The position numbers were made by a program, and so were the translations under genes. Below, in pieces: positions 1 through 15,105 of a DNA stretch of 27,862 nt; within the stretch, counting starts at the first letter, position 1, and every line of letters starts with the position of its first letter. This DNA is from a virus: positions 1-27,862 of IMG/VR virus record IMGVR_UViG_3300037360_000071. The stretch is one strand, 5' to 3'. The notes beneath the pieces were generated by a model, which was not told the DNA's origin, made no database searches, and worked only from the letters and a program-made list of their open reading frames with translations.

Positions 1-3000
1 CTGCTGCCTCGACGTCTGAAAGCCACCGAGCAGGCCCTCGACCTGAGTCTGGAGCTCCGCGGCGGCACTGGTGTACTTGCCAGGGACCTTGCGGTCCTCC
101 CCCTTGCCAGAGCCGTACCGCGCCGTGACATACTGCCCCGCGGCCAGCTTTCTCGCGGCAGATATCTTCTCCTCTTCACCGAGTCCCAGCCCCGCGGTCG
201 AGGCGCGAAACTGAGCGATGGCGGCCTTCATGCCGGGCAAAGCCGTCATCCGCCCAGCGACGTCGGCAATCATCTCTCCGCGCTCTATCGAGCTGCTCGG
301 CATGACGCCGGCAACCTTACCAGTCTTTGACTTCTTGGCAAACTTTAGCGCTCGCTCCTGTGCGAACTCCAAGGAGGTCTGGGCCTCTAGGGCGCCAAAC
401 CCCAGCGCACTCTCGGTGGCCTTTTGAGCTTCGTTTATGCCCTCGACGCGGCGCGAAGCTAGCTCAGACACGTGTCCTCGACGCGCTGCGACGTCGGCCA
501 GCTTCTGTGGCGCGATCACCTCGTTGAGGTGCTTGAATGAGCTCTCCGTCGCGCCTATCGCGTCAGAGAGCTTCTTGAGCTTCTCGTAGGTTGCATCATA
601 CCGCATCTCGGCACGATAGTCCCTGGGTGGCTGCTGTTCCTTGCCCTTCTTGCTAAACGGATTCAAGAAGTCGAGGAAGTCGGCCGTGATGAAGCCCCTC
701 TGGCTAGCTCTCCTCTTTGCCTCGTACTCGAAGCCCTTCCGCTTGGCTTCGCTCATGGGCTGCTGTGCAGACGCTCGCTCACTACCAATGACGCTGGGCG
801 CGGCCAGCAACTTGGTGTAGGCGTCACGCGACGCGGTCGCCGCGGCAGCGTTCCTGGCGGTGCGTCCAGCAAGCTGACCAGCGCCCGCTATATCAGCAAG
901 GTCCAAGAATTTTGCGTGGCCCGGACCAAGCTGCCTGGCCATTTGCATAGCAGTCTGTATGTTGGAGATGTTGCTCTTGCCGCGATTCATGGCTATGAAG
1001 CGCTCGATTTCCTCCGTCTTGAAAGGAGGAAGCTCTCCACCAGGACCAACAGACATAACACTGATACCAGCCTGATCAGCTACACCCTGAGCCTTATCCC
1101 AGTACTTTTGCCAGCTCTTTGCCACGCCTGCATATTTCTCTGGCAATTGTGCGTGTACAACCCTGGACACTCCAGCATTAGCCAACTTCGCCATGCAGGC
1201 GTCACACGGCATGAAATTGACGTAGGCGGTACCACCCTTCGCACCAGCCCCTGCCATTGTGAGCGCCTCGTGCTCGGCGTGGCGCACTATGCCTAACTTC
1301 TCACCCCGATTTTCCTTAAGGTTTAACCTAGCAATCTCTGTAGAAGAAGTTCCTCTAGGAAATCTATTTGCCCCGGCACCAACTACCTTCCCGCTAGCAT
1401 CAGTGATGACAGCGCCAACTTGTAAAGAAGTGTCTTGACTGCGTAGGATGGCTTCCTGATTAGCGAAGTCCAAAAGCTGCTTCGCTCTAGCGTCCTTCCT
1501 CACAGTATAAGACTGAGTGAGCTGCGCCTCAATGGGAGATTCCCTACCACTGATGACTCCAGGCAACAGAGGCATCATGCCTAGACGAAATCTCGACGAC
1601 ACTGGACGCTGCATGTCCATCTCATCATTTACGCGACGCAAGGTAGCGAGAGCAATGTCCGGACCCATCTCCCTGTTACCAGAACCACGATCAAGTCCAA
1701 GCGTCGGTTCAGCAGCTTGCGCAGCCAATATTTCAGCATGCTTAGTATACACCTGCGCGATCTCACGTGCAGGGACTATCAAAGCATTTCTAAGAAACTC
1801 TTCAAGGCTCCTCTTCTCAGCGTCCAATGCTAAGGCTCCCATGCCCATAGTAGGCGGCAAGGACTCCTGCGCCGGATCATGCTTGCCCTTGGCAGTGACT
1901 CTGCCCTCATCCTCTGGGAGAACTGCATCCAGAGTCTCGACGTAGTGGCTTCTTCCAGACTTAAGTTTCCTATCTATGTGCTCCAACCTATTCCGTGCAT
2001 CCTCAACCGGCAAAGAGACGAATTGCTCCATTACCGAGCTCGGCCCAATGATGTTGCCAAGCATCATCTTCATGTAGGTCCGGCCACCACCCACGCTCTG
2101 TGGGTGCCGAGACGAAAGCAGAGCAGCTTCAGAGCCAACATCAGCCTCCGACCTATGTGCGGTTCCAGGAGTAGAGAGCCCGTGAAATCCCAATAATTTT
2201 TGCAAGCCCGCAGCAGGGAATCCAAGCGGACGTTTCCAGGGGATCTGGGTGGAGGAATCTGCCCAGGGAACTGCAGACTCAATTCCAGGAACTACTTTGC
2301 GAAGTCTCTGTAGGTCGGCTGCAGGCCAATGGGCCACTGCGAGGTCAGCCTTGGAGGCCATGTACCGGAGACGGGTTTGAGAGATTCCAGGCGAGTCATT
2401 CAATTCTGCAAGGTTTAACCCCTTATTGCCAAGCCACCTGAGATCGCTTGGCATCGGGTAGTGCTTTCCTCCTCTGGATACTATGCCAGCACCAGATATC
2501 CTAGCCTCGTCAAGGCGTTTCGCCGTGCCAAGTCGCATCCTGCCATACCGCATAGTTGCAGTGTACGAGTCGATAGCCCTGCCCAGTTCTCCAGTTTCCT
2601 TGTCATACTCGTACAGGCTAGCGGTAAGTTCTACCGTGTGAAGGTTAGTAGCCTCGATGTCAGTGATCAGCACCTTGCCGCTTCGTGCAGTCTCTACGAG
2701 ACCTTTTCTAAGTGCAGGAATGCTGCTCTTCAGCACCTCCTCAATTTTTCCCTGTATCTCCTCGCGCTCATCATGCGCCCTTGATTGCCTTCTGATGAAA
2801 GCTTCTCTACGAAGATCTCTATTTGCTTGCGACAGTCCTGGCTGAGATTCTAGGAGCCTTTGCCCTGAGTCCATGCGCAGCCTGCGGGGCCTTGCCAGAC
2901 GAGGCTCCTGCTCAGATTCAATTGAAGATCTTAGGCCAGTAGCAGCAATGGCACTGGCTAAGGAGGTGGTGCCAGAAATCTTTTGGCGTTCATAAGCCTG

Positions 3001-3546
3001 CTGCGACTCACGCGCCTCGGCCTTGCGCTCCAGGAACTCTAACCTAGCCTGCTGCTTTTGAGCCCTGACTCTGGCGATCCTGTCATTTTCCCTGTCTACA
3101 GCGTACTGCCTAACCTCCTCACGTCCCCTATTGGGGTCGATTATGCCGCGTTGCTTCAGAGAAGGTGAGGCATTCTGCTTGATAAGTTCCCTGCGAAACT
3201 GTGCGATCTCATTGGTCAATGGCTCCAGTATCCGGCCAAAGGCTTTAATAAGCAAAGATGATTGGTCAATGGTGTGAGTCGGAAGGTTGCTAGTAAGACG
3301 AGGTCCTGCAGACGAGCTGAGCTGTGCCTTTACCCAGTCTTTGGTAACTGTGGTACCAGAGATGTGGCTAAATACCTTTGCAAAAGCTTGATGCATGTCG
3401 CCCAAGAGATTTTGCAAAGTCCTCGCATTCTTTTCAGTGCCGGCCACGATTTCGCCGAACTTAGATACCAACGTATCCAGAGGGACAGCAGACTTTCCCA
3501 CTAGAGCATCTGAAATAGAGTTAAGAAAACTATCGTTTAGCGCCAT
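1..3546 (-). CDS. Tape-measure-position giant virion protein with DEDDh exonuclease and cytidine deaminase domains (3' end outside window)
   Basis: The frame is open for 1182 codons and runs off the left edge, so the protein is incomplete. The ATG at 3546 has AGGAG seven bases upstream. It follows the frameshifted tail assembly chaperone, which is the tape measure position. Residues ~1-290 are helical and rich in Gln, Arg and Glu. Residues ~290-490 carry the exonuclease set of the DnaQ/RNase T family: DIEATNL (D296, E298), AHWPAAD (D411) and HRSEAD (H464, D469), with the usual His-to-Asp spacing of five. Residues ~683-800 carry a deaminase fold: LQVGAVITDASGKVVGAG, then HAE (H756, E758) and PCDAC (C781, C784), the zinc ligands and proton shuttle of CMP/dCMP deaminases. 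From ~800 on the sequence is Ala/Glu/Lys-rich and tape-measure-like. The domains and open frame are seen; the virion role is inferred from position. A cytoplasmic enzyme, or a polyvalent-type protein injected with DNA, are alternatives. Confidence 0.88.
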   Translation of the reverse strand, partial: MALNDSFLNSISDALVGKSAVPLDTLVSKFGEIVAGTEKNARTLQNLLGDMHQAFAKVFSHISGTTVTKDWVKAQLSSSAGPRLTSNLPTHTIDQSSLLIKAFGRILEPLTNEIAQFRRELIKQNASPSLKQRGIIDPNRGREEVRQYAVDRENDRIARVRAQKQQARLEFLERKAEARESQQAYERQKISGTTSLASAIAATGLRSSIESEQEPRLARPRRLRMDSGQRLLESQPGLSQANRDLRREAFIRRQSRAHDEREEIQGKIEEVLKSSIPALRKGLVETARSGKVLITDIEATNLHTVELTASLYEYDKETGELGRAIDSYTATMRYGRMRLGTAKRLDEARISGAGIVSRGGKHYPMPSDLRWLGNKGLNLAELNDSPGISQTRLRYMASKADLAVAHWPAADLQRLRKVVPGIESAVPWADSSTQIPWKRPLGFPAAGLQKLLGFHGLSTPGTAHRSEADVGSEAALLSSRHPQSVGGGRTYMKMMLGNIIGPSSVMEQFVSLPVEDARNRLEHIDRKLKSGRSHYVETLDAVLPEDEGRVTAKGKHDPAQESLPPTMGMGALALDAEKRSLEEFLRNALIVPAREIAQVYTKHAEILAAQAAEPTLGLDRGSGNREMGPDIALATLRRVNDEMDMQRPVSSRFRLGMMPLLPGVISGRESPIEAQLTQSYTVRKDARAKQLLDFANQEAILRSQDTSLQVGAVITDASGKVVGAGANRFPRGTSSTEIARLNLKENRGEKLGIVRHAEHEALTMAGAGAKGGTAYVNFMPCDACMAKLANAGVSRVVHAQLPEKYAGVAKSWQKYWDKAQGVADQAGISVMSVGPGGELPPFKTEEIERFIAMNRGKSNISNIQTAMQMARQLGPGHAKFLDLADIAGAGQLAGRTARNAAAATASRDAYTKLLAAPSVIGSERASAQQPMSEAKRKGFEYEAKRRASQRGFITADFLDFLNPFSKKGKEQQPPRDYRAEMRYDATYEKLKKLSDAIGATESSFKHLNEVIAPQKLADVAARRGHVSELASRRVEGINEAQKATESALGFGALEAQTSLEFAQERALKFAKKSKTGKVAGVMPSSSIERGEMIADVAGRMTALPGMKAAIAQFRASTAGLGLGEEEKISAARKLAAGQYVTARYGSGKGEDRKVPGKYTSAAAELQTQVEGLLGGFQTSRQQ

Positions 3547-3549
3547 CTG

Positions 3550-4445
3550 CTATCTCCTGGTTCTCCGCTGCGTGGGGGCTTGCTGCTGGGGTCGAGGCTG
3601 CTGCGCATACCGCATGCTCTCCACGCGGTTGTGCTCTTCTGCGAGGATGACGAACGCGTCCACGATGCGAGCGGGAAATTTATTGAGGTCGCCCCCGTGA
3701 GGCGAAGCTCCGAGACTTTCCTTGAGGATCCTCACCCTTGACCAGTAGGCGACGAGCTCAAGCGACGTCTGAGCATTTCGCGACCCCCTGGACTCGGTCA
3801 CGAAGAGAGAGGTAGGACACTCCGATGTTTGAGTGTCGAAAAGCACGAACGGCTTACCGCCCGTGTCTTTGTACGTAGCTTCCCAGCAGACTGCCCTGTT
3901 CGGGTCTATCCTGCTTGGGAAATGGAGACGACAGTTTCGCTCGCGCCACCATCCGCGCTTCTTGCACTGTCCGCAGTCGAAGGACTCGGACTCACTGGCG
4001 CCGGTTCTCCACCAGTGGTACGCGACTCGGAGTTTTTTCTTTCTGTCCCGTTTAACTCAGCCTCGCCCTTGACTAGGGAGAGGACCTCGCCGAACATCTC
4101 CGACGGCCAATCCATCAGATCTTCGACGCCCAGCGACTTGCCGTCGACCTCCAGACCCGAGATCTGCTTTACGCCCCAGCGAACCCAGGCCACGTTGATG
4201 CTCTCCAGCATGATGCCGTCGAACTCGTCCTGAAGCTCGAGCCACTTCGACATGTCTCGAGTCTCTTCAGGCTGCTGCTCGATGGCCGCCTGCTCACGGA
4301 GAATCTCCCGAATCCTACGGTTTGGCTCACCGATCGCCTTGCGAAGTTCCAGCCTGCGACCTTCAGTCATCTTGCGGAGCACCACTTCCACCCCAGGAAA
4401 GGTCTCAAGTGGAATGCTTCGAGTCGTATGGTATGCATGTTTCAT
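3550..4445 (-). CDS. Tail assembly chaperone, -1 frameshift fusion product (gpGT-like)
   Basis: Long form of the tail assembly chaperone, about 298 residues. It is made if ribosomes slip one base back at the A-AAA-AAC heptamer at 4038-4032, after codon 138 of the short form. The new frame is open for 160 codons to the stop at 3550. It has no ATG, GTG or TTG between the slip site and a GTG at 3846, and an in-frame stop lies about ten codons upstream of the slip. The frame therefore has no independent entry for its first ~98 codons. The extension looks like real protein: a CX2CX10CX2H zinc-type motif (starting FDCGQC) precedes a mixed alpha/beta stretch and a Gln/Arg-rich tail. In lambda, gpG and gpGT bind the tape measure during tail assembly, and this gene also lies directly before the tape measure candidate. 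Slippage is inferred; efficiency is unknown. Confidence 0.85.
3906..4445 (-). CDS. Tail assembly chaperone, unshifted form (gpG-like)
   Basis: A 179-residue protein directly downstream of the tail tube gene. The ATG at 4445 is preceded by AGGGAG at a rather long spacing. The first ~125 residues are charged and largely helical, with segments such as FPGVEVVLRKMTEGRRLEL and FDGIMLESINVAWVRWGVK, which is the look of siphovirus chaperones that coat the tape measure during tube assembly. After the slippery codons the zero-frame tail turns into a low-complexity Ser/Pro/Ala/Gly stretch ending at 3906. That fits a form whose last ~40 residues are under little constraint because the functional alternative lies in the -1 frame. 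Assignment rests on gene order and the frameshift architecture more than on sequence recognition. Confidence 0.82.
   Translation of the reverse strand: MKHAYHTTRSIPLETFPGVEVVLRKMTEGRRLELRKAIGEPNRRIREILREQAAIEQQPEETRDMSKWLELQDEFDGIMLESINVAWVRWGVKQISGLEVDGKSLGVEDLMDWPSEMFGEVLSLVKGEAELNGTERKNSESRTTGGEPAPVSPSPSTADSARSADGGASETVVSISQAG
4032..4038 (-). promoter_or_regulatory. -1 programmed ribosomal frameshift slippery site A-AAA-AAC
   Basis: On the minus strand the heptamer AAAAAAC is phased as AGA AAA AAC in the zero frame, the X XXY YYZ arrangement needed for simultaneous -1 slippage. The downstream -1 frame is open for 160 codons. A CCACTGGTGG inverted repeat begins about 13 bases downstream and could help stall ribosomes. 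Confidence 0.88.
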
Positions 4446-4475
4446 TGTGTGCGGTTTTCTCCCTAAACAAATTCA

Positions 4476-4497
4476 CGGGCCCCTGCCAAGGGGCCCG
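4476..4497 (-). terminator. Hairpin after the tail tube gene (terminator or attenuator)
   Basis: CGGGCCCC and GGGGCCCG form a perfect 8-bp GC stem with a six-base loop, in the 84-base gap between tail tube and chaperone genes. The bases after it on the minus strand (GTGAATTTGTTT) are only partly T-rich. It may be a partial terminator that lets tail tube protein be made in excess. Confidence 0.6.
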
Positions 4498-4530
4498 CTC
4501 TCTTCAATCGCTCAAGCTCGACTCATCAGC

Positions 4531-5814
4531 CTACGCGATGATGAGCGAGTATTCATCCTTGACCCCGAGATTCGAGGTAGTGGCCCGACTATCGGCATAG
4601 CTCGCATCAAAGCGAAGCTGACCGTCCGAGAGCTGATGCGAGGCCAGGTACACATTCTTCATGTAGTGCACCCACACATTCCCCGCCACAGTCCCAAGGT
4701 TCAAGACGAAGTCGACCGGCGCCTTGCTGTCGCCCCACGTCTTCAGCAGGTTTACTGCCGCGCTGTCATCGTCATAGATGTTGAACGAGAGAGTCACGTT
4801 CCGCACGTCGCCCTCGGTGAGCGTTGCGTAGTAGCTGCCGAACGTGTCACGCACCAGCATGTTGTTCGTCTGGACCCTGATGGTGGCGTTCCTGATGGTG
4901 GGGAACGCGACGGCCGCGGTAGCGTACACGGAAGCCGTCGTAGAGCTAGCCCCCGCCACGAACCGACCGGTGAATCCCGGAATGATGCTCCCGCTGGTCA
5001 CCGGAGTCGTGGGCTCCGGGGTGAATGTCGTCAAGCCACCCGCCTGATAGACGTCAGCCGTGGCAAAGTCCTTGCTGCGCAGCACCCACAAGCAGTCACC
5101 GTTCGCCTGCCAAGTCGCGACGTCTTGATTGAGGTTGAACGTCGCCTCCGCAACCACGCACGTGTGGCCGACGCGTTGGTCGAGAGTTGCAGCTGTGCGG
5201 AAAGACCACAGGGTGAACTGGGTGATGTCATCGACGAAGGTGTACGTCAGCTTCACCCTGCTGACCGTGCCAGTCGCACCTCCAATAGTGGACGCGGAAC
5301 CATCCGACCCAACGAGCGTCAACGCAGTCGTGCTGCCGGCGTAGGCCAGCCACGTTCCATTGGCAGCCGTGTTGACCGTGTGGCCGGCGATCGTCACGAC
5401 CTCGAACGTTCCAGACGTGATGCCGTGCGCCGCGCAAGTGACGACGATGGGCAGCGCCGCCGTCGAGCTGGCGATGGCGTACGTTCCAGCGCCTACGGCC
5501 GCCGTCTGCCCAAACATGGCAACGAGGATGGGGTCGCAATCCGGCGCCGTGCCAGACGTCCCGTTGGCCGCGAGCGACATCTCGATGCTCCATCGACCAG
5601 CCTTGCGTCCACCGACCATTCCCTCTTGAGATCGGGTGCCGGTCTTGTCCTGACGTTCCAGGAGGGCAACTTCATTCTGCAACTCCATCCGAATGAAGCG
5701 GCAAGCGTTGGAGTTCCCGACCGATGCCGTCCCTGAGGCGTTCGGGATCGTGCCGAAAGTAGGCTGCTTTTGCAAGTACGCACGCTCAAGGCGTGAAAAT
5801 GAGTAATTAGCCAT
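4531..5814 (-). CDS. Major tail (tube) protein
   Basis: A 427-residue protein whose position before the chaperone/tape-measure pair marks it as the tail tube subunit. The N-terminus (MANYSFSRLERAYLQKQ) and the beta-rich C-terminal half, with VRNVTLSFNIYDDDSAAVN and a final strand region ending EYSLIIA, fit the tail tube fold. Residues ~107-188 look like an inserted Thr/Gly/Ser-rich beta domain (AIASSTAALPIVVTCAAHG, then GSTTALTLVGSDGS) of the kind often decorating tube proteins. The start ATG at 5814 has AGGAGAG about 12 bases upstream, a long spacing. It is followed by a strong GC hairpin. Confidence 0.85.
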   Translation of the reverse strand: MANYSFSRLERAYLQKQPTFGTIPNASGTASVGNSNACRFIRMELQNEVALLERQDKTGTRSQEGMVGGRKAGRWSIEMSLAANGTSGTAPDCDPILVAMFGQTAAVGAGTYAIASSTAALPIVVTCAAHGITSGTFEVVTIAGHTVNTAANGTWLAYAGSTTALTLVGSDGSASTIGGATGTVSRVKLTYTFVDDITQFTLWSFRTAATLDQRVGHTCVVAEATFNLNQDVATWQANGDCLWVLRSKDFATADVYQAGGLTTFTPEPTTPVTSGSIIPGFTGRFVAGASSTTASVYATAAVAFPTIRNATIRVQTNNMLVRDTFGSYYATLTEGDVRNVTLSFNIYDDDSAAVNLLKTWGDSKAPVDFVLNLGTVAGNVWVHYMKNVYLASHQLSDGQLRFDASYADSRATTSNLGVKDEYSLIIA

Positions 5815-5842
5815 TGCCTATCAACTCTCCTATTCTTCTAAG

Positions 5843-6202
5843 CTAGAGACTGACTGCAGGCTCCGGCTCTCGAACGTCCACGTTGTCGGAGGCTTCAGCC
5901 AGCACGCTGCTGGCCTCGCTCTCCATCCTTGCCCGCACCTCGCGAAACATCTGCTGCGCCATGGTCAATTTGTCGTTGAACGACTGTGGCGGGTCCATGC
6001 GGGCTCCCGACTGCCCATGCATCGAGAGCTCATCAGCTGTGAAGTCAACCTTGCTAAAGTCCTCCTCCACGATGAACGGGGCATTTCCGAGAACTGCCTC
6101 ACGAAAGCCCTGCTCGCTGAAGACGGCTCGCTGCCCCACCGCGTCAAACTCGCGGTCTCCAATCTGTGAGCAGTCACCACCGACGTATCTGCAAGCAATC
6201 AT
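5843..6202 (-). CDS. Conserved-looking small phage protein between tail completion and tail tube genes
   Basis: 119 residues from the ATG at 6202, which has GGAG seven bases upstream. An in-frame ATG at 6226 lacks such a site and is disfavoured. The N-terminus (MIACRYVGGDCSQIGDREF) and a middle FSKVDFTADELSMHG segment resemble small accessory proteins seen beside tail tube genes; I do not know a function. The C-terminal third is Glu/Ala/Arg-rich and probably helical. No membrane segment or catalytic motif is evident. Confidence 0.75.
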   Translation of the reverse strand: MIACRYVGGDCSQIGDREFDAVGQRAVFSEQGFREAVLGNAPFIVEEDFSKVDFTADELSMHGQSGARMDPPQSFNDKLTMAQQMFREVRARMESEASSVLAEASDNVDVREPEPAVSL

Positions 6203-6274
6203 GCAAGGACTCCAATCCAATTTCAATTGTACAACATAGAGACCGACAAGGACACAACATTGTTGCCGAACCTG

Positions 6275-6802
6275 TCACTGATGAAGCTGAAAGAGCATGA
6301 TAAAGCTGATTCTCTTCTTATAGTTTTGCGCGCCAAAGACTGTCGGTCCTCTCCTGCACTGAATCTGCCCATTGTACACGAGCGGCTTCCCCCAATTCTG
6401 ATTGTCGACCCTGTTGATGACGTCCACCACCACGTCCTCGACGCAGCTGGAGTAGATCTCCCTGTTCTGGGTCCCTCTGACAGGAACCCAGGAGAGGTTC
6501 ACGTCAAATATGCAGCGAATGGCGCCAGAGAATTGCACGAACTTTTGATCGTTCGTCTGAATAGAGTCGAGTATGTACAGTGAGGCGAACGGATACCTGA
6601 TGGTGCCAGACTTCTCGAGCATCTCCGAGTCAATCTGATCAAAGTAAAAGTTCTGGCTGCTTGAGGAAAAGTCCAGTGACATGAGCGAAGCTTGAAGGCC
6701 ATACAGGGGGGCTTGCGTCAGCAGGCCAGCATTGTACCCGTTGGCGGCCGACAGGCGCGCGTAGACTGCGTCCAGGACCTGCTGCGAGACTTTAGCTAGC
6801 AC
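6275..6802 (-). CDS. Tail completion / tail terminator-like protein
   Basis: 175 residues. The start is a GTG at 6802 with GGAGG at a good distance, and it overlaps the end of the minor head gene, suggesting coupled translation. It begins with a helix (LAKVSQQVLDAVYARLSAANGYN) and continues with beta-rich sequence, the general plan of tail terminator (gpU-type) and closure proteins. Its place after head-joining genes and two genes before the tail tube fits that role. There is no diagnostic motif, so the assignment is by context and overall shape. Confidence 0.7.
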   Translation of the reverse strand: MLAKVSQQVLDAVYARLSAANGYNAGLLTQAPLYGLQASLMSLDFSSSSQNFYFDQIDSEMLEKSGTIRYPFASLYILDSIQTNDQKFVQFSGAIRCIFDVNLSWVPVRGTQNREIYSSCVEDVVVDVINRVDNQNWGKPLVYNGQIQCRRGPTVFGAQNYKKRISFIMLFQLHQ

Positions 6803-7592
6803 GACCTACCTCCAAAGCTTCGCCAAACCAAAAGTGGCTGCAGCCGAACCCACCACCATTTAGAAAAGCATCTTGAGTTTGGCCGTTGTCGAGCGCGGCG
6901 ACCTCGCCAAGCGTCAGAGAGTTGCCGGACAAGAGCCTGGAGCAAAAGCCCCTGGTAGAGTTGGTCCTCGGACCTGCATAAGTGTAGGCGAGCTTCGTCC
7001 CCTGCTCCTCGACTCTACGATACGCCAGTGAACATAACAAACGATGCCATAGGTTTGCTTGGTCTTTTCCAATCGGCCCAACGTGCGACATCTTCCGAAC
7101 GATGGCATTGATCTCTTGGGCCAACTCAGACAGTCTCAAGACACTGCCGAGTGACCGTGCCAGGAGCTGACGAAGCTCGTTGAGGACTCCCTGGGTCGAG
7201 TGGCCCTCGAGAATCGCGACAGCCACGGATGCCTGGCTCGAGAGCACGCCCCGATCTCCTGACGTGAGGACGCACGACGACGGTGGTGTGCCCTCGTGCA
7301 TGGAGTCAAAGTCGCTGACTTGGTCTGCGAAGCTCTCAACAAAGGCAAGAACCGTGGGGTAGTAGTCGGACACGTCCAAGGACTCTTGAAAGACGTCCTC
7401 AATCGCCAGCACGCCTTGCGCATTCTCTGGAGACCGCACGACGACCCCTCGATGCACGCTCAACGTCTTGAGAACGTACTCAGAGACGTCTGCAGCCACG
7501 CGGTCAACTTCACGCGAGACTTGAGTCTCGAAGCTGAGTGTCAGTCTCTCGACTCTGTTCACGTGGGCGTCGACTTTTTCTTGAGAGATCAT
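6792..7592 (-). CDS. Minor head protein, Mu F-like C-terminus
   Basis: 266 residues, ATG at 7592 with GGAA nearby. The N-terminal two thirds are helical. The C-terminal region has the pattern typical of phage minor head/morphogenesis proteins: an aromatic YTYAGPRTNSTRGFC segment, then ALDNGQ, then a Gly-rich GGGFGCSHFW ending. In relatives the equivalent Cys and His residues cluster near the end. Such proteins ride inside or near the portal. Here the gene sits after the connector gene rather than next to the portal, and overlaps the following tail completion gene by 11 bases. Confidence 0.7.
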   Translation of the reverse strand: MISQEKVDAHVNRVERLTLSFETQVSREVDRVAADVSEYVLKTLSVHRGVVVRSPENAQGVLAIEDVFQESLDVSDYYPTVLAFVESFADQVSDFDSMHEGTPPSSCVLTSGDRGVLSSQASVAVAILEGHSTQGVLNELRQLLARSLGSVLRLSELAQEINAIVRKMSHVGPIGKDQANLWHRLLCSLAYRRVEEQGTKLAYTYAGPRTNSTRGFCSRLLSGNSLTLGEVAALDNGQTQDAFLNGGGFGCSHFWFGEALEVGRAS

Positions 7593-7617
7593 CAGTTCCT
7601 AAGCTGTGAAAAAGTGC

Positions 7618-8595
7618 CTACGCACGCTGCCTCATTGGCGCGATCGACAACCGCCTGTCTGGATACTGCCCATTGGATGACTCGTAGCCACTCATCACTG
7701 GATCACTCGCCAACGTGTACGTCTTCGTCGTGATGGGTATCGGTGCAGCATTCTGCAAATACAGCACGCCTCCTTGGTTGCCGATGTACACGTTCCAGTG
7801 GGTCGCCCGCAGTGGCGACACCACGACTACAAGAATCTGTGAAGGATGCTGTGCTCCAGAGGGAGGATTCAGCGAGGTGATGTCGACCTCAATGACCTGC
7901 GCGCCGCCAGGCGTCACGGTGACGACGTCCGACAGCTCAGACTCGCAGTTGTTCGGCATGGCGGCACTCGCGTAGAAATTCGACTGACTCATGTCACAGT
8001 ACGTGACCACCACGTCGAACGGCGTCGTGGCAATCCCCGACCCCGTGACTAAGTTCACGTTGCTCGAGTCCCAAGTGCCCGTGTTCCGCTCGAACTTTGC
8101 CGCAGGCCTGACCAAGGGCCTGATGACCACTGGAATGCCAAGCGTGTACAGGTTAGAGGTGATGCGGCGCTGCATCTCCTCCCTGTAGAAGTCCATCTTC
8201 ACTTTGTAGCGATCGCCGCCGACTCTGGCAAAAGCATCACGGTAGAAATTTCTCAACGCCCAGTACACGACCCACTGCTTAACCCAGTTCCACTGTCCAG
8301 GCACGTCGCCAGAGACCACTATCTGCTGTAGGCCAACCTTCTGTCGAACTGAGTTGCCAATGCCTACGTTGAGCACAGCCGCGAGATGATTGGCCGTCAA
8401 GTCACCAGCATTGAGGTAGCCGCCAAAAGAGATGACGAGCTTCATCATCTCATTTGCAGCCTCCTCAACAGCACCTCGCAGCATCCCGTTGTCTCCAGTC
8501 AACGTGATACTCTCCGAGGTGGCGACTGTCTGCACTTCAGAGTCTATCCGTGCCAAGTCTCCCGGCGCAAGAAATATGCTGTCCGTCCAAAGCAA
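7618..8595 (-). CDS. Head-tail connector / adaptor-type structural protein
   Basis: About 325 residues. I prefer the TTG at 8595, since GGGGAGG lies six bases upstream and the product then begins MLWTDSIFLAPGDLARIDSEV. A GTG at 8610 would overlap that ribosome site and add five residues. Residues ~1-150 are mainly helical, with aromatic-rich WNWVKQWVVYWALRNFYRDAF, in the manner of connector proteins. The C-terminal half is a beta-rich domain with WNVYIGNQGGVLYLQN. The place between capsid and tail genes supports a neck role; I cannot assign it to a precise family. Confidence 0.72.
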   Translation of the reverse strand: MLWTDSIFLAPGDLARIDSEVQTVATSESITLTGDNGMLRGAVEEAANEMMKLVISFGGYLNAGDLTANHLAAVLNVGIGNSVRQKVGLQQIVVSGDVPGQWNWVKQWVVYWALRNFYRDAFARVGGDRYKVKMDFYREEMQRRITSNLYTLGIPVVIRPLVRPAAKFERNTGTWDSSNVNLVTGSGIATTPFDVVVTYCDMSQSNFYASAAMPNNCESELSDVVTVTPGGAQVIEVDITSLNPPSGAQHPSQILVVVVSPLRATHWNVYIGNQGGVLYLQNAAPIPITTKTYTLASDPVMSGYESSNGQYPDRRLSIAPMRQRA

Positions 8596-8627
8596 AGCAG
8601 ACCTCCCCACTCACGCACAATGCTAAA

Positions 8628-8660
8628 GCGGGGCTCAGCGGAATCTCCGCCAAGCCCCGC
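8628..8660 (-). terminator. Nested GC hairpin before the connector gene
   Basis: GCGGGGCT pairs with AGCCCCGC, and inside it GCGGA pairs with TCCGC around a three-base loop, in the gap between the 137-residue structural gene and the connector gene. The minus strand continues TTTAGC, too short a T run for a strong intrinsic terminator. It may attenuate or stabilise messenger RNA. Confidence 0.5.
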
Positions 8661-8684
8661 CACGCTCTTCGTGAAAACCTTCGC

Positions 8685-9098
8685 CTAGGACTCGACCCAA
8701 GCCCGATAGGTGCAGGTGCCCGTGGTCGTGGTCGTCGGAATGACAGCGCCACTCGCATACGCCGAGAGCTCCAGGAGCTTCAGCCGGAGGATGCCGCTCG
8801 CGACGCCGATGCGCAGACCGGGAAAGTCCTGCTTCTTGAAGGACTTCACCTTGTCGTACGACTTAGCGAGCGTCCCCTTGAAGTCGATGGTCGGGCCCAT
8901 GAGAGCGCCGGTAAAGTCCGGGAGCACGGCGTCCTCGAAGCCGAAGCGAACGGTCGGGACGTTGCCGGCAGTCGAGTCCGACAAGGCCTCGACCTGCAGC
9001 TTGAGCGTCCAGTCACCGGTCATGCCTGAGACGTCGATGCTGGAGCCTACGAAAGACGCGGTCTTGATGACGCGCGATTGAACTTCTGTCAAAGTCAT
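8685..9098 (-). CDS. Structural protein of unknown role (head decoration or neck candidate)
   Basis: 137 residues, ATG at 9098 with GGAG in the preceding bases. The sequence is beta-rich with little charge clustering and ends in a Thr-rich strand (IPTTTTTGTCTYRAWVES). The segment DVSGMTGDWTLKLQVEALS reads like a beta sandwich. It lies two genes after the major capsid gene and before the connector gene, a usual place for decoration or head-completion proteins. No family is recognised. Confidence 0.65.
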   Translation of the reverse strand: MTLTEVQSRVIKTASFVGSSIDVSGMTGDWTLKLQVEALSDSTAGNVPTVRFGFEDAVLPDFTGALMGPTIDFKGTLAKSYDKVKSFKKQDFPGLRIGVASGILRLKLLELSAYASGAVIPTTTTTGTCTYRAWVES

Positions 9099-9224
9099 GG
9101 ATCTCTCCTAGGAGCGTCGTCTTCCGTTAGCTCCTTGTTCTTGAAGCATTGCCGAAACTTAGTGGGCGTCGATGATTGCGTTCATTTAAGCTGCGCGCCT
9201 TGGACTCGCCAAGCAGCCCCACCG

Positions 9225-9611
9225 CTACTTGTTGCTGACTTGTTTTCCACGGCCAATCGCCGGAGCAGCCTCAGCCCCGCCGGCGAAGACGGCCTCGGGA
9301 GACTCGCCATCTTTCTGGTTGACCACCACGATGTATTGCTTCTTGTTGGCTTGCTCAGCCGCCGCATTCTTCCTCAACTGAGTCTGCTGGTGTTTCAAGA
9401 AGCCGTCGATCTCTTCCTGAGTCGACACCCTGTGCGTGCCGTCTGTGATGACGCGCGCGGCATTGCGGCACGTGGCGCTCAAGGTGCTGCCTGGCGTCGA
9501 GCCCCTCTCACGATGAAAGAGCGACGTCACGTGGACGACGCCCTCTGGATACTCTTTCTCCAGCCTAGCTTCCTCAGCGTGCGCGTCCTTAAAATACTCT
9601 TTGAGGTCCAT
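9225..9611 (-). CDS. Small protein downstream of the major capsid gene
   Basis: 128 residues, ATG at 9611 with TAGGAG upstream. The N-terminal part is Glu/Lys-rich and helical. The middle (SATCRNAARVITDGTHRVST followed by QEEIDGFLKHQQ) resembles short accessory proteins that often follow capsid genes. The C-terminal third is Ala/Gly-rich and probably flexible. Function unknown. A long hairpin separates it from the capsid gene. Confidence 0.65.
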   Translation of the reverse strand: MDLKEYFKDAHAEEARLEKEYPEGVVHVTSLFHRERGSTPGSTLSATCRNAARVITDGTHRVSTQEEIDGFLKHQQTQLRKNAAAEQANKKQYIVVVNQKDGESPEAVFAGGAEAAPAIGRGKQVSNK

Positions 9612-9628
9612 CTCACTCTCCTAATCTT

Positions 9629-9664
9629 GGGGCCAGGCCATTAAACAGAGGCCAGCCTAGCCCC
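9629..9664 (-). terminator. Ten-base-pair hairpin after the major capsid gene
   Basis: GGGGCTAGGC and GCCTGGCCCC pair over ten positions, one being a G-U pair, around a 16-base loop. It lies between the capsid stop codon and the next ribosome binding site. There is no T run, so it is either a weak terminator or a structure that protects the highly expressed capsid message. Confidence 0.5.
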
Positions 9665-9684
9665 TCGATCTGTCTTCACTGAAA

Positions 9685-10846
9685 CTAGCTCAGCACCGCG
9701 ACGCCGTACACGTTGCGAAGCACAGTCACGCCATAGAGGGTGTCCACGGTGAACTGCTGCGCCAGGGTATTGGGCGCGTAGCTGAGCACCACGCGCATGC
9801 CGAAGTTGCCAAGGGAAGCATACTCCGCGACCGCGCCAGTGTTCGGGAGCGGCTTGGGAAGCATGCGCATGACCAGGGCGAAGGCGTCGCGCGCGAAGGC
9901 CAAGTTGTAGGTCGTCGAGCTCGGCTTCTGAACGTACTGGCTGCGCATGACGTAGAAGTTCTTCAGGCGCCCGACGATGCCGGTCGGAATGACGCCCGCG
10001 AACTCCGGCGACACCTTGTCTTCCGAGAAGCGCTGAATCTGACGGGCGTCCGAGTACGTCGAGCCGCTGAGAATCAGGAACTTGGGCAGTGAATCTGGGA
10101 CCTTGGCCGTGAACAGGGTCGTTTCTGCGCTGTCGATCACCGACTCCGTGATGGTCGTGTTCGACGTCCCGACGGCCGTGTTGGCCGTGAGGTTCAAGTA
10201 GAGCTGTGTCAGGTCCTGCTCAATGCGCTCCGCGAGCGAGATGATCGCCGGCATCATGTACATGTTGAGCAAGTCAGGATGTGCCAGGACGCGCGTCACG
10301 TCTGGAATCTGGAACGACGATTCCGCGTGCGTGTTGATCACGACCTGCGCGTTGCCGAGCGAGGGACTTTGCGTACTCACCGAGCCACCTTCTGCGATGT
10401 TGTTGGCGGCCATAGTGGGCGGGATTGGGATGTTCACCGTGTCCCCCTGATTGGCCAGATCGGCTTCATAGGACCGATTGACGAGGTTGCCCATAACAAG
10501 ATTGCCGACCAGCGCAGGCAGCGCGTCGGCTGCGACCAACTTCACGATGGCTTCCAGAAGTGTTGCGACCGGGATCGCTATTCCCGACCTTCTGCTACTT
10601 TCGTTAGCAGCTCAGACTATATCATCATCCAGAATTTCTCCTGGAGCCTCGCGCTTCGGACCGCTTGGTCCTACGAGCTTGCGCTCTAGTCGTTGAACCT
10701 TCCCTGTCACCAGGGCTTGGCTGCTGATTGCCGTGCCTCTTCAGAGGTTTAGGTTTTCCAGCAATTCACGAGGTATTTTCTTTGCCCAATTACTCGGGCA
10801 ACGGCCTAGACCATTAAGCCACGTTTGCCGAGGTAATAGCGGCCAT
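9685..10846 (-). CDS. Major capsid protein, coding sequence split by a group I intron
   Basis: Exon 1 is 10846-10817: ATG with AAGGAG nine bases upstream, ten codons reading MAAITSANVA. Exon 2 runs from about 10584 to 9685. Spliced product about 309 residues. Exon 2 has no usable ATG at its head, and its open frame extends upstream of the first possible start (GTG at 10545) with capsid-like sequence (IPVATLLEAIVKLVAADAL), which shows the N-terminus lies elsewhere. The body (ALVGNLVMGNLVNRSYEADL, VNIPIPPTMAANNIAEGGSV, FQIPDVTRVLAHPDLLNMY) is typical of HK97-fold coat proteins of the P22-coat-like group. It follows the scaffold gene. Unspliced message stops at a TAA immediately after codon 10. 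The exact 3' splice base is uncertain by a few bases. Confidence 0.9.
10585..10816 (-). ncRNA. Group I self-splicing intron in the major capsid gene
   Basis: About 232 bases with the conserved core in order on the minus strand: P element AATTGCTGGAAAACC (10766-10752), Q AATCAGCAGCCAAGCCC (10729-10713), R GTTCAACGACTAGA (10698-10685) and S GATATAGTCT (10623-10614). TGCTG/CAGCA form P4, GACTA/TAGTC form P7, and CCCTG-GTGA-CAGGG is a hairpin with a GNRA loop (10702-10715). TGCCC/GGGCA form P2, and CTGCTA/TAGCAG form a P9 hairpin. The exon end GTGGCT pairs with internal guide GGCCGT, placing the U-G pair at the 5' splice site after codon 10. No endonuclease ORF fits inside. The 3' splice site is best placed after 10585; 10588 and 10576 also keep the frame. 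Confidence 0.9.
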
Positions 10847-10855
10847 ACTTTTCTT

Positions 10856-10861
10856 CTCCTT
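10856..10861 (-). promoter_or_regulatory. Ribosome binding site for exon 1 of the capsid gene
   Basis: AAGGAG nine bases before the ATG at 10846. This site fixes the true start of the capsid protein in exon 1, upstream of the intron. Confidence 0.75.
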
Positions 10862-10969
10862 TTAGTGAACTAAGTCCGCGCTGATTGCAACTACCGACCC
10901 ACCCGCCACTCTGCGCACGTACTTATGGCGAACAGGCTGTGCGAAAATCTCACCAACTCTTGATCTCTT

Positions 10970-11731
10970 CTACGCCGCGTTGCTCTGCAGCGCCGCCGCG
11001 ATCGCCTCAACGGCAGCTTGCCGATCTTCCTGCTTCATGCCGACCTTGATGGAGCCAATGTCGGCCTTGGCCCCCATGCGCACGCCGCTGCCAGCCGCTG
11101 GAGCACCGGAGCCGGTCGCGCCGGTCGTCCTGAACAGGTACCCATGATCCTTCTGCAAGTAGTCCTTCGTGAAGGCATCCACGGGAAAGTTGTCACCATT
11201 GATCCCTGCAACGAGGGACCCGTCATCGAGCCGACGGACGTGCGGCGAAACGATGGAGAAGGCGGTCTCCGCCGCCTTATCGTTGACGAATGGCAGACCG
11301 TTGAGCGCGGTTCGAATGGTCGAGAAGCGCTCCGTCTCTTCGGCGCGCCGCTCAGCCTGCTCCTTGGCCGTCTTCAAGGTTGAGATCTCAGTGCCATAGG
11401 ACTTGAGCTGATCCGTGAGCTCCTTGAAGCGCGCGTTGGCTTCCGGAGGAAGCTGCTGTCGGCCGGTGCCTGTGCCAGCAGCCTCACCAGCACCGCCCGA
11501 TCCGCCCTGGCCAGCGACCAACTTCGCCAGAGCGTCGTTGATTGTCGCCAGTTGAGAGTTCACGGGCTCCACCTGAGCCTTGATGGCATCACCGAGCCCG
11601 GACTTCTTGAAGTCGTCAAACTTCGCCCCGACCTTGGCATCTATGAGCTTCGTCACTTCGGCCAGCACGCCCTCGAGCGTGACTGGAGGCGGGGTGCCGT
11701 CTCCACCGGGCTTGTTACCTAGCATCGACAT
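10970..11731 (-). CDS. Capsid scaffold protein
   Basis: 253 residues, placed directly before the capsid gene. It is highly charged and helical, with a Gly-rich hinge (AGQGGSGGAGEAAGTGTG), then a coiled-coil-like stretch (ELTDQLKSYGTEISTLKTAK) and a C-terminal Ala/Gln-rich helix (RQAAVEAIAAALQ). These are standard features of phage scaffolds. The ATG at 11731 is preferred because GGAGTGAGG lies just upstream. The alternative GTG at 11746 lies within that site, and would fall only a few bases from the predicted transcription start. Confidence 0.8.
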   Translation of the reverse strand: MSMLGNKPGGDGTPPPVTLEGVLAEVTKLIDAKVGAKFDDFKKSGLGDAIKAQVEPVNSQLATINDALAKLVAGQGGSGGAGEAAGTGTGRQQLPPEANARFKELTDQLKSYGTEISTLKTAKEQAERRAEETERFSTIRTALNGLPFVNDKAAETAFSIVSPHVRRLDDGSLVAGINGDNFPVDAFTKDYLQKDHGYLFRTTGATGSGAPAAGSGVRMGAKADIGSIKVGMKQEDRQAAVEAIAAALQSNAA

Positions 11732-12082: not shown

Positions 12083-13765
12083 CTACTTCTCCTGTCCCTT
12101 GCCTTCTGAAGAACCATCCTTGACGGATGGCCCAGCACCGCCGCGCCCAGGAGGCATGGCACTTCCGCTGCTCCTGTCGTCCAGGGATGCCTGCATGCTG
12201 TCCTTCGCGAGCTTCACGCGGTCCTTCATGTCCTTGCGCTCGCGCTCTTCAATGGTCGGTCCAGCGTCGATCTCCTCGTACACCTTGACGAGCTCGTCGC
12301 GGTTCGCGTCGATCAGCCACGCCTTCGCGACCTTCTTCATCACGGACTTCTCCAATAAGCGCGAGGGAATCCTTAATTTCAAGAAGGAGGAAACCGCAAA
12401 CACCTCCTCCGTCGACATGTCCTCCTGGAACGTGAGTCCTCGAACGTCTGGCTCGACGTCAGGCTCATGCCGCGCGTCGCGCACGTCTGTCAGCACATCC
12501 TGCATGTGACCGCGAACGTCGTCCCCCATGCCAGAGAGTATTTGCTTAGCTGGCGCCATCTCCAAGATCTTGCTGCGACCAGACTGCATGGCCGGCGTGG
12601 CCCGCATGCTGCGTCCCTGAGCCTGCAAGTTCATCGAGCGGAAGCACTCTTCCCTAAGCGACTCCACGCGCTTCGCAGAGTGAACGAGGCTCTTCCCCTC
12701 TGGCTCAGACCACTGGTACAGCGTGCCGGAAGGAAAGTGCAAGAAACCAATTTCACTATAAGTCATGCCGCTCGGATCTATGTCGCCGATCACCACGGGC
12801 ATTGCCAAGTTCGACATGAACAGCATCCACGCGAGCGTGTTGTCCTGGTTGAAGTGATCCACGAGGAGCAAGTACGCACGATTCGCGAGCCACAGCCCCT
12901 CGCTCAACGTCACGCGACGCAAAGGCAAGCGGTTCACGTGCGCCAATGCGTGTCTGCCTTGGCGAATCAGCTTTGCCATCCTCCCACTGTCATCAGTCGC
13001 GATGCGCGTCTGCTCCTCAGGACTGCGGCGATCCTCGTAGACTCGAAAATTTTCGCGGTCGTAGTAATAGAACGTGGTGACGATCTCGGCCTTCTCCAAA
13101 AACTCCTGCTGCTGCACCTCAGTCTTCACGACCGCCCACTTCAACTTTCCCATCTCGTCCGTCTGCCAGTTGATGATGTTGAGCGGAGAGTAGCAGGCCA
13201 AGTGCGGGTCGAGCAACCCGCGCTGCCTCTCCTCCTCAAGTGAAGCAGGTGGCGCCTCACCTGAGTCAAGCGCCTGCAAGTCCGTGAGCACCCACCCGGC
13301 GCCATACGTTAGCATCACCTGAAAGACTCTCTTAAAAAAGTCCACGTACGTCGTTCCAATGCCGTCGCAATCTTGCAGGAACTTCGTGTACGCCTCACTG
13401 CCACTCTTGCCGTTGAAGAAAATCTCGGGCATCGTCTCGAATAGGGCCGCGCCATACCACCCAAGACCAGTGCCAAGGATATTCTGGTACGTAGATCTGT
13501 CCATGCGAGCCGCGTAGACTTCCTCATCCTCGCGGGGCCTCTTCTTCAAGAGGCGCTCACACCGAGCTTTGAGTGCAGCACCGCCCTCGTACAGCAGTGA
13601 CAGGTCGAGCCATGTTTCGAATCGCGCCTCATACTCAGGGTGCTTGAGGTCGAGCAAATTCACCGGCTGCTCGCCTTCATCAGGATCGATCGGGGGCTCC
13701 TTCGACTCGCTCTGACGAGTTGGAAAAGTCATTATCGGATTCACGACTATCGCGCGACTGCTCAT
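12083..13765 (-). CDS. Portal protein
   Basis: 560 residues. Its ATG overlaps the stop of the ATP-grasp gene as ATGA, so the two are translationally coupled. It is recognised as a siphovirus portal by the N-terminal helical block (YEARFETWLDLSLLYEGG, then LLKKRPREDEEVYAARMDR), the stem-like middle (DYFKR-type helices, ACYSPLNIINWQ), a long C-terminal helix region and the Gly/Ser/Lys-rich tail. Position downstream of terminase and upstream of scaffold and capsid agrees. Twelve copies would form the DNA channel and the docking site for the terminase. Confidence 0.88.
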   Translation of the reverse strand: MSSRAIVVNPIMTFPTRQSESKEPPIDPDEGEQPVNLLDLKHPEYEARFETWLDLSLLYEGGAALKARCERLLKKRPREDEEVYAARMDRSTYQNILGTGLGWYGAALFETMPEIFFNGKSGSEAYTKFLQDCDGIGTTYVDFFKRVFQVMLTYGAGWVLTDLQALDSGEAPPASLEEERQRGLLDPHLACYSPLNIINWQTDEMGKLKWAVVKTEVQQQEFLEKAEIVTTFYYYDRENFRVYEDRRSPEEQTRIATDDSGRMAKLIRQGRHALAHVNRLPLRRVTLSEGLWLANRAYLLLVDHFNQDNTLAWMLFMSNLAMPVVIGDIDPSGMTYSEIGFLHFPSGTLYQWSEPEGKSLVHSAKRVESLREECFRSMNLQAQGRSMRATPAMQSGRSKILEMAPAKQILSGMGDDVRGHMQDVLTDVRDARHEPDVEPDVRGLTFQEDMSTEEVFAVSSFLKLRIPSRLLEKSVMKKVAKAWLIDANRDELVKVYEEIDAGPTIEERERKDMKDRVKLAKDSMQASLDDRSSGSAMPPGRGGAGPSVKDGSSEGKGQEK

Positions 13766-15105
13766 TGCCCGGACACCTCCTCGCCCAGAGTCTCCTCCAA
13801 CTCAATCTCTGGAATGGCCCCGATCGACACGCCGTCCTGCGCCTCGACCTTGTGGTACAGGCAACCAATCTTATCAGACAAGTCCGTGCGATACTGCAGC
13901 TCTGGCACCTTCAAATCCCCCAGCGCGCCGTATGCCAGCTCCCACGCCTCCCAAGGCTTGCAGCACACGCCCACGGCAACTCCAAGTATCCCGGTGCCAG
14001 GACAATGGACCAACTTGCCGTCATCCTCCATCACCTCATAAAAGAAGAACGACCCCGCGTTCTTGTCTGTAAGTCCCCTAATAGGGATGCCACCATTCGG
14101 ACGAACTTTCTGCGCATCTCCAACAGCGGGGGGTTCCAAGGGATATGGCGGTATGGAGAATCTCACGCCAGCTCCAAACTCATCCTTCAACGGCATGTCG
14201 TAGTCGAGCTGCTTGCGCGCGATGTCGGAAAAGAACTTGCCCACCTCCTTGTTGAACATGAACATCTGAACTGGTGTAGAGTCGTAGCCAAAGCGCGGAG
14301 TCCACTCCAAGCCCCACACGCCGTCGTCGTTGACGATCGCATTGAGGTCCATGGGACCGACGTGTCCGGACGCAACCACCTGACTCTCGACCCTGGCCAG
14401 TCCACTGGAGGATATGCGGCAACTGCCGCTCTCCGTCCAGAGGAGATTCCCTGCACAGCCGGTGGCAGGACCCAAGCACCCGTCCATGAATGCCTTCAGC
14501 TCCAAGTCGTGGATGGCCGGCCTGATGAACTTCTCGCCATCGCACCAGAGCTCCGTGGACACTGCCACACCCTCGACGAACTCTTGAAGCACGAATGACT
14601 CCACATCCTTGCCATAGTTCTTCTCGACATATGCCACGTACTCCAGCAAGTCATCGTTGTCGCACGAGACGTAAGTCAAAAAGCTAGGCAAGTTCTTTCC
14701 CGATGGCTTGAACACGAACCTGCCCTCATCATGCGATGCCAAGAACTCCTCGATGCCGTCGAACTTGTCAAACTCCTGCGAGAACGGAACCTTGATGCCG
14801 GCCTCCACCATCAGGTCCAAGCCGAACTGTCGATCTTCCTCGAGGCGATCGGCAAAGGCAGAGCCTCCCACCACGGGAATGCCGGCTCGTGCGAGCTTGT
14901 CCGCAAGCTTCCCGAATCCACTGGTATCGAAGATCACCACCGTGTCCTTCGTCGGATTGACCTTCTTCACCTTGGGCAAGAGCCCATCCCACATGTCGCG
15001 GCAGTCAGGACGCTTGATGTATAGAGAGACCTCGTTCCCCTCATTCTCGATCATCTTGAGAACGTGCGCGCCGATGCCGTCTTCAGACACCATGAGAAAC
15101 TTCAT
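13762..15105 (-). CDS. PurD/GARS-like ATP-grasp ligase in the head-gene cluster
   Basis: 447 residues, ATG at 15105 with GAGGTG upstream. The domain order follows phosphoribosylamine-glycine ligase. An N-terminal Rossmann-like part (MKFLMVSEDGIGAHVLKMI) is followed by ATP-grasp: FVFKPSG (K133), VLQEFVEGVAVS (E175), CLGPATGCAG (210-219, matching the PurD GPNTGG region) and LEWTPRFGYD (266-275, matching the metal-binding EFNVRFGDPE). The PurD substrate motif GGREHA is absent from the N-terminus, and Asn of the metal motif is replaced by Thr. It may therefore ligate a different carboxylate and amine, such as a nucleotide, base or protein group. It is coupled to the portal gene by ATGA overlap. 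Family clear, substrate unknown. Confidence 0.85.
   Translation of the reverse strand: MKFLMVSEDGIGAHVLKMIENEGNEVSLYIKRPDCRDMWDGLLPKVKKVNPTKDTVVIFDTSGFGKLADKLARAGIPVVGGSAFADRLEEDRQFGLDLMVEAGIKVPFSQEFDKFDGIEEFLASHDEGRFVFKPSGKNLPSFLTYVSCDNDDLLEYVAYVEKNYGKDVESFVLQEFVEGVAVSTELWCDGEKFIRPAIHDLELKAFMDGCLGPATGCAGNLLWTESGSCRISSSGLARVESQVVASGHVGPMDLNAIVNDDGVWGLEWTPRFGYDSTPVQMFMFNKEVGKFFSDIARKQLDYDMPLKDEFGAGVRFSIPPYPLEPPAVGDAQKVRPNGGIPIRGLTDKNAGSFFFYEVMEDDGKLVHCPGTGILGVAVGVCCKPWEAWELAYGALGDLKVPELQYRTDLSDKIGCLYHKVEAQDGVSIGAIPEIELEETLGEEVSGQ

Follow-up and report, generated by a model that had tools for sequence, protein, structure and literature searches.

Why should the tape measure protein (TMP) of a phage tail carry two unrelated enzymes that act on nucleic acids or nucleotides? 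The question arises from a 27,862-base stretch of viral DNA, hereafter the window (IMG/VR virus record IMGVR_UViG_3300037360_000071, classed as linear and hence a fragment), whose gene at 1..3546 on the minus strand, like all window features given below, was described by an original prediction made without database searches as a TMP with a DEDDh exonuclease and a cytidine deaminase domain. We confirmed the uninterrupted frame of 1182 codons, in which codon n begins at window base 3546-3(n-1); as it runs off the contig end, the gene lacks its 3' end and the protein its C-terminus (residues 1-1182 present). Each of the residues named in that prediction, D296, E298, D411, H464 and D469 for the first enzyme and H756, E758, C781 and C784 for the second, stands at its number, and both domains with intact catalytic residues are backed by held-out hidden Markov models, by AlphaFold2 and Foldseek, and by relatives. 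What the prediction overlooked is the variability and exchangeability of the block, which in the sequences of related phages occurs with an active exonuclease, with exonuclease plus deaminase, with exonuclease plus DUF4406, with a dead exonuclease, or with none. The anatomy and modularity of this enzyme block are near certain; the reading that we favor, with a probability of about 0.55, is that the N-terminal third of the TMP is an exchangeable enzymatic payload, which is probably ejected with the TMP and would act at DNA entry.

The exonuclease domain occupies residues 286-500 (2047..2691). Its catalytic set of DxE, D and H...D is complete, being formed by D296 (2659-2661), E298 (2653-2655), D411 (2314-2316), H464 (2155-2157) and D469 (2140-2142), and Trp stands in place of the Asn usual in the HN motif. 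Single-sequence searches with the window protein (Pfam, PHROGs, and PDB by sequence) missed this domain, and relatives were needed to detect it. A held-out profile, built from 24 stand-alone exonucleases with the window sequence and all TMPs excluded, scored the window protein at 55.8 bits (2e-16), the best of 1000 shuffles reaching 12 bits. Moreover, the AlphaFold2 model of the domain (predicted local distance difference test, pLDDT, 83; predicted template modelling score 0.77) was matched by Foldseek to DEDDh exonucleases of the TREX1/TREX2/3'hExo type, with TREX1 at 6.6e-5 and probability 1.00, and a profile from the alignment of the TMP exonucleases found the PolC exonuclease (2.6e-21) and also DnaQ in the PDB. 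In fact the same domain is present in the complete TMPs of three large related contigs, namely L009 (131.8 kb; TMP P0003, 2501 aa), L010 (116.8 kb; P0004, 2666 aa) and L011 (120.0 kb; P0005, 2460 aa), which match phrog_192 'DNA polymerase exonuclease subunit' at 1.4e-18, 1.2e-15 and 5.9e-8, respectively, and the NCBIfam PRK09182 3'-5' exonuclease at 5.7e-36 to 1.9e-19. The five DEDDh residues are invariant in the alignment of these three with the window (33-61% identity), and in the tree the four active TMP exonucleases group together as a single clade with support 100/99, which suggests a single capture in the ancestor of the lineage. We conclude that the window carries a DEDDh (DnaQ-like) 3'-5' exonuclease domain, whose catalysis is predicted from motif and model.

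Following a spacer of residues 501-650 (1597..2046), which is alignable with other TMPs (blastp to P0003 and P0004 across the region, 5e-33 and 2e-24), a dCMP-type zinc deaminase domain is found at residues 669-830 (1057..1542), with H756 (1279-1281), E758 (1273-1275), C781 (1204-1206) and C784 (1195-1197) as zinc and catalytic residues. It is matched by Pfam dCMP_cyt_deam_1 (PF00383; residues 691-798, 4.3e-13, above the cut-off) and by the PHROG_174 dCMP deaminase (4.1e-22), and a held-out deaminase profile scores the window protein at 92 bits. The nearest PDB entry by sequence is human dCMP deaminase (3.9e-10), and Foldseek places the AlphaFold2 model (pLDDT 77) with the human dCMP, PBCV-1 dCMP/dCTP and T4 dCMP deaminases at 4.6e-11 to 6.2e-11 (2w4l, 4.6e-11); structure prediction thus returned for both domains the folds that had been proposed. 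Compared with 18 viral relatives, the zinc and catalytic residues (HxE, CxxC) are kept. The PADLOC model of dCTP-deaminase defence also matches (1e-12), which reflects kinship within the superfamily and proves nothing further.

That the gene encodes a TMP, as had been proposed from its place directly after a frameshifted tail chaperone, is borne out by the slippery AAAAAAC, by the shared C-terminus and by a phrog_28 match in a sister phage. The chaperone (179 aa; 3906..4445) is assigned by position, having no PHROG match of its own, and is conserved in L009, L010, L011 and the sister contig L003. The slippery heptamer A AAA AAC for the -1 frameshift (4032..4038) stands in register in the window, L003, L009 and L010, with an A-rich run in L011; the -1 frame extension (3550..4038), which is open and conserved, has a 151-nt overlap with the end of the 0 frame, adds 117 aa beyond the 0-frame stop and ends just ahead of the TMP start. 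Upstream of the chaperone lies a tail protein (4531..5814), taken as the major tail protein, which is 73-76% identical in L009-L011, gave no match in Pfam and PHROG scans, and served as the anchor for finding relatives. The last 286 residues of the window TMP, forming the shared backbone of residues 897-1182 (1..858; GC content at third codon positions, GC3, 0.766), are 98% identical in nucleotides to L003 over 355-856 and 88% over 1-249, and are common to P0002, the TMP of L003, which continues into the TMP core. P0002 in turn matches phrog_28 tail length tape measure protein, weakly (1.2e-5), and aligns with the three complete TMPs over about 1000 residues (e.g. 4e-91). At the other end, the N-terminal segment of residues 1-115 (3202..3546) is weakly conserved in sister TMPs (blastp to P0002 residues 1-93, 2e-8; to P0005 residues 1-206, 1e-6), and by analogy with phage 80alpha it would lie nearest the head and bind the tail completion protein. 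The genes downstream of the homologous TMPs gave weak matches only. No counterpart of the TMP core or the tail protein turned up among 50,697 phage records or in plasmids, and to judge from these collections the lineage is uncultured. On this sequence evidence the window gene is a siphophage TMP, and the lineage is one of large uncultured siphophages.

Among the relatives, the contents of the enzyme block vary from phage to phage. P0003 and P0005 have the exonuclease only, with an empty second slot, which is located about 100-250 residues downstream of the exonuclease; in P0004, residues 556-657 are a DUF4406 domain (2.3e-15; phrog_355 nucleoside 2-deoxyribosyltransferase, 5.5e-21), occupying the inter-domain region that holds the deaminase in the window TMP. 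The alignment of P0002 with P0005 covers the parts preceding (1-166) and following (246-1167) the exonuclease but not the domain itself, so that in L003 the exonuclease is gone. In yet another phage, L067, whose TMP has 2576 aa, the exonuclease region remains collinear with its counterparts (pairwise 3e-8 to 3e-10) but has other residues at all five catalytic positions, and it escapes the profiles of the active exonucleases. The exonuclease motif on which the original prediction relied is thus invariant in three homologues and lost in L067. These three states of the second slot and three of the exonuclease come from six phages, and frequencies are not to be read from such a sample. Across the lineage the capsid protein is 87-91% identical, as against 25-58% for the N-terminal region of the TMP. 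The comparisons show, at the level of sequence, that a DnaQ-type DEDDh exonuclease was joined to the TMP in an ancestor of the lineage, and that the resulting block can be lost, inactivated or swapped whole.

Such a swap can be delimited between the window and L003, which share 96.4% identity across tail genes 4529-9774 and 98.4% across 3541-4462. The identity ends at the first TMP codons (3541) and is back, at 98.0%, from 856, corresponding to residue ~897 of the window TMP and residue ~470 of P0002. The exchanged block therefore extends from the start codon to residue ~897 (856..3546), facing a block of ~470 residues in L003 that is unrelated in DNA, and its composition is foreign: GC3 is 0.48-0.56 within the block and 0.77 after it, the tail and portal genes having 0.77 and 0.74. 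For the corresponding block GC3 is 0.63-0.79 in L003 and 0.43-0.66 in the L009/L010 type. Because of this foreign GC3, the exonuclease-deaminase block of the window looks imported and the enzyme-free allele of L003 native, and from its composition the donor looks like a lower-GC3 phage such as the L009/L010 type. The imported form recurs in a second metagenome, where contig L002 is 99.98% identical over window 401-11546, and the fusion is thus independently seen. A large previous study of protein shuffling in phages could confirm no genuine recent mosaicism in TMPs (PMC10684548), and the window/L003 locus is, by its sequence, a candidate example. Free-standing open reading frames resembling homing endonucleases (GIY-YIG/NUMOD3, LAGLIDADG) lie among the virion genes of L003 (5279-6013) and L071 (1-678 and 4786-5514); as the one in L003 has no counterpart in the window and is situated ~0.9 kb upstream of the exchanged block, homing might drive the exchange. 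The shared backbone also has a second small in-frame variable stretch, window 250-354 versus L003 8817-8951 (about 35-45 residues).

As for the source of the enzymes, the sister genomes have a separate deaminase of 180-191 aa beside the DNA polymerase. We rejected this stand-alone gene of the phage itself as the nearest source of the TMP deaminase, judging from pairwise identity rather than a tree, as it is 22-24% identical to the TMP domain versus 31-36% for the enzymes of other phages. A stand-alone phrog_192 exonuclease or DUF4406 protein was not found in the sister records, which are possibly incomplete. Outside the lineage, no TMP-borne exonuclease was seen among the 44 best relatives in bacterial and archaeal genomes, and among the best 80 of at least 497 viral relatives of the deaminase 79 are stand-alone or outside TMPs. 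Accordingly, of the domain pair that had been predicted, the exonuclease recurs in three complete TMPs, and among those 80 deaminase relatives a fusion is seen in this phage only; none of the collections searched contradicts the remark that no case of exonuclease plus deaminase in a TMP was established. Related capsid proteins occur in more than 500 viral contigs, and most of the top 80 are at about 65% identity and belong to phages on small contigs; at the six capsid-related loci inspected, a large TMP occurs only in L070, which is from the L067 phage itself. In L087, L089, L133 and L139, only open reading frames of 214-334 aa are located where the tape measure is expected, and these are possibly relatives with very short tails.

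What might such a block do? In phage 80alpha, the three N-termini of the TMP are at the head end, where the tail completion protein links them to the DNA terminus, and the C-termini are at the tip (PMC11661146). By this model, about three TMP copies per virion would lie in the tail tube of our phages, with the N-terminus toward the head, beside the DNA, and the C-terminus at the tip; such few copies favor a catalytic cargo. On infection the TMP would exit first, and its N-terminal enzymes would come last within the TMP, just ahead of the genome. They would then refold in the cell and, as catalysts, process nucleic acid or nucleotides where the DNA enters, for example by trimming ends, oligonucleotides or signal nucleotides, or by altering the nucleotide pool or a signal, and one may imagine that the second enzyme acts on the products of the first. 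In fact the exonuclease, the dCMP-type deaminase and the deoxyribosyltransferase-like domain are each of a kind that works on nucleic acids or nucleotides. The most likely role would be counter-defence or early take-over, in which case the block would turn over in keeping with differences in host or defence. From general TMP biology, delivery of the block into the cell is likely; the counter-defence purpose is a guess, the best on offer.

Several points weigh against this reading. The packaging, ejection, activity and target of the block are all inferred. L067 keeps a dead exonuclease fold and L003 has none, from which it follows that the activity is dispensable in the lineage, and turnover between near-identical phages fits neutral recombination equally. 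Moreover, next to the genome as it enters, a 3'-5' exonuclease that is neither blocked nor selective could damage the phage, and a globular domain must unfold or fit in the narrow tail tube. For the deaminase, 7 of 11 other near-invariant positions differ (Q, T, L, A, R, loss of D, and E for N), including the N to E change in HAExN and the Y and G of GYNG, and the substrate-site residues of phage dCMP deaminases (such as HAExN, GYNG, SKDPST) are not fully conserved in the window domain. We therefore label it 'dCMP-type' and not a dCMP deaminase; by these changes its substrate may not be dCMP, or the domain may be decaying. According to the modelled fold, it looks like a nucleotide deaminase with a possibly shifted substrate, an APOBEC- or toxin-type editor of DNA or RNA being less likely on fold rank.

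Could the exonuclease fold serve the virion itself? It might act on DNA ends within the virion or neck, holding or trimming the 3' end of the packaged genome, with catalysis optional. The position of the 80alpha N-termini, adjoining the DNA terminus via the tail completion protein (PMC11661146), would suit this role, as would the TREX-type 3'-end enzymes being the nearest solved folds and the L067 domain keeping its fold after losing five catalytic residues. Yet four TMPs retain the full catalytic set at 33-61% identity, and such a role would leave unexplained both the second slot, which holds a deaminase or deoxyribosyltransferase, and the total loss in L003 next to tail genes 96-98% identical; we hold this role to be unlikely. 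A somewhat smaller chance is given to the enzymes acting late in the producing cell, in the nucleotide or DNA metabolism of the phage, with their fusion to the TMP incidental. Relatives of the three domains are indeed ordinary proteins of phage metabolism (phrog_192, phrog_174, phrog_355), and a separate dCMP deaminase stands beside the DNA polymerase in sister genomes, but this very gene means that these genomes already own such an enzyme; nucleotide supply would be mistimed under late expression, and independent enzymes occupy one slot of a structural protein.

The domains might also be evolutionary debris, inserted by recombination and tolerated without function since the N-terminal part is not the ruler. 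Dead and absent versions and the drifted substrate-site residues of the deaminase are consistent with debris, but the loss in L067 is all-or-none, the five exonuclease residues are invariant in four diverged TMPs and the deaminase retains its four zinc and catalytic residues, so that we consider it improbable. There is scarcely any room for the gene not being a TMP, with the real tape measure elsewhere, or for an assembly chimera. It is true that the window TMP is truncated and that no TMP model matched, in Pfam for the window or in NCBIfam for the relatives' TMPs; against this, its C-terminus is common to P0002, which reaches the TMP core and phrog_28, and complete homologues of 2460-2666 aa follow the same frameshifted chaperone. 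The chimera was rejected by the independent contig L002. The exchangeable payload thus remains the reading we prefer.

How does such a payload compare with known systems? Some TMPs carry peptidoglycan hydrolase domains acting on the cell wall; here likewise an enzyme resides in the TMP, but it is a nucleic-acid or nucleotide enzyme, and no wall hydrolase domain was found. The DnaQ-type exonucleases of phages and bacteria (phrog_192, PRK09182) and the phage dCMP deaminases (phrog_174) have the same fold and catalytic residues but are stand-alone. In the open-access literature we found no report of nucleic-acid enzymes in genuine phage TMPs. In the contractile injection system (CIS) of Streptomyces davawensis, the TMP-related effector Tme has an active EndA-like nuclease (PMC11126660), and like the window TMP it is a TMP-related protein with a nucleic-acid enzyme as ejected cargo, ejection being assumed in our case. 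Tme however belongs to a contractile bacterial system and has its enzyme at the C-terminus and DUF4157 at the N-terminus (PMC11126660), whereas in these phages the enzymes are N-terminal, are DEDDh, deaminase or DUF4406, and cluster with capsid, portal and terminase genes. The Sle1-type CIS effectors are TMP-like proteins and share with the window TMP a variable, reconfigurable module, for which fusion with a deaminase-like domain has been described (PMC13277306); they differ in being from bacterial CIS, with a C-terminal variable end, no exonuclease, and a DUF4157 protein encoded beside them (PMC13277306). Of the marks of CIS effectors, namely a CIS cluster, a link to DUF4157 and a C-terminal domain, the window TMP has none: it lies in a phage head/tail cluster and gave no DUF4157 match. 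The polyvalent proteins, which the original prediction named as the closest idea, are described from head/MuF and conjugation contexts, the word 'tape' being absent from the main text (PMC5512222). The likeness is loose and consists in the common idea of unrelated enzymatic domains in one DNA-delivered protein (PMC5512222), as none of their hallmark domains (ART, MPTase, ArdC, MuF, PBECR, methylase-helicase) was detected in Pfam, PHROG and NCBIfam scans of the TMPs.

Other genes of the window were observed besides the tail cluster. An intein that contains a LAGLIDADG domain (Intein_splicing 1.2e-9, LAGLIDADG_3 6.6e-14) splits the gene of the terminase large subunit (16405-19284), and the related terminase of L070 (560 aa) appears intein-free. 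Just before the portal gene lies that of an ATP-grasp (GARS_A) protein (13762-15105), with likely homologues in L010, L011, L067 and L071 by sequence start and position, and a papain-family cysteine protease is encoded at 20638-21408 (Peptidase_C1, 1.4e-14).

If the payload reading is true, the tail ruler brings effectors into the cytoplasm ahead of all phage gene expression, a point relevant to the way in which phages blunt fast defences upon entry. The block of ~900 codons, swapped between phages with neighbour genes 96-98% identical, would be a clear case of recent mosaicism in a TMP. Moreover, the natural series of active exonuclease, exonuclease with deaminase, exonuclease with DUF4406, dead exonuclease and none bears on the relation of cargo to host range and on the N-terminal part as a ruler. 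More generally, and only tentatively, TMPs may be able to carry a fast-exchanging repertoire of injected nucleic-acid or nucleotide enzymes, which would be a counterpart of the modular effectors of injection systems, directed against host defences at DNA entry.

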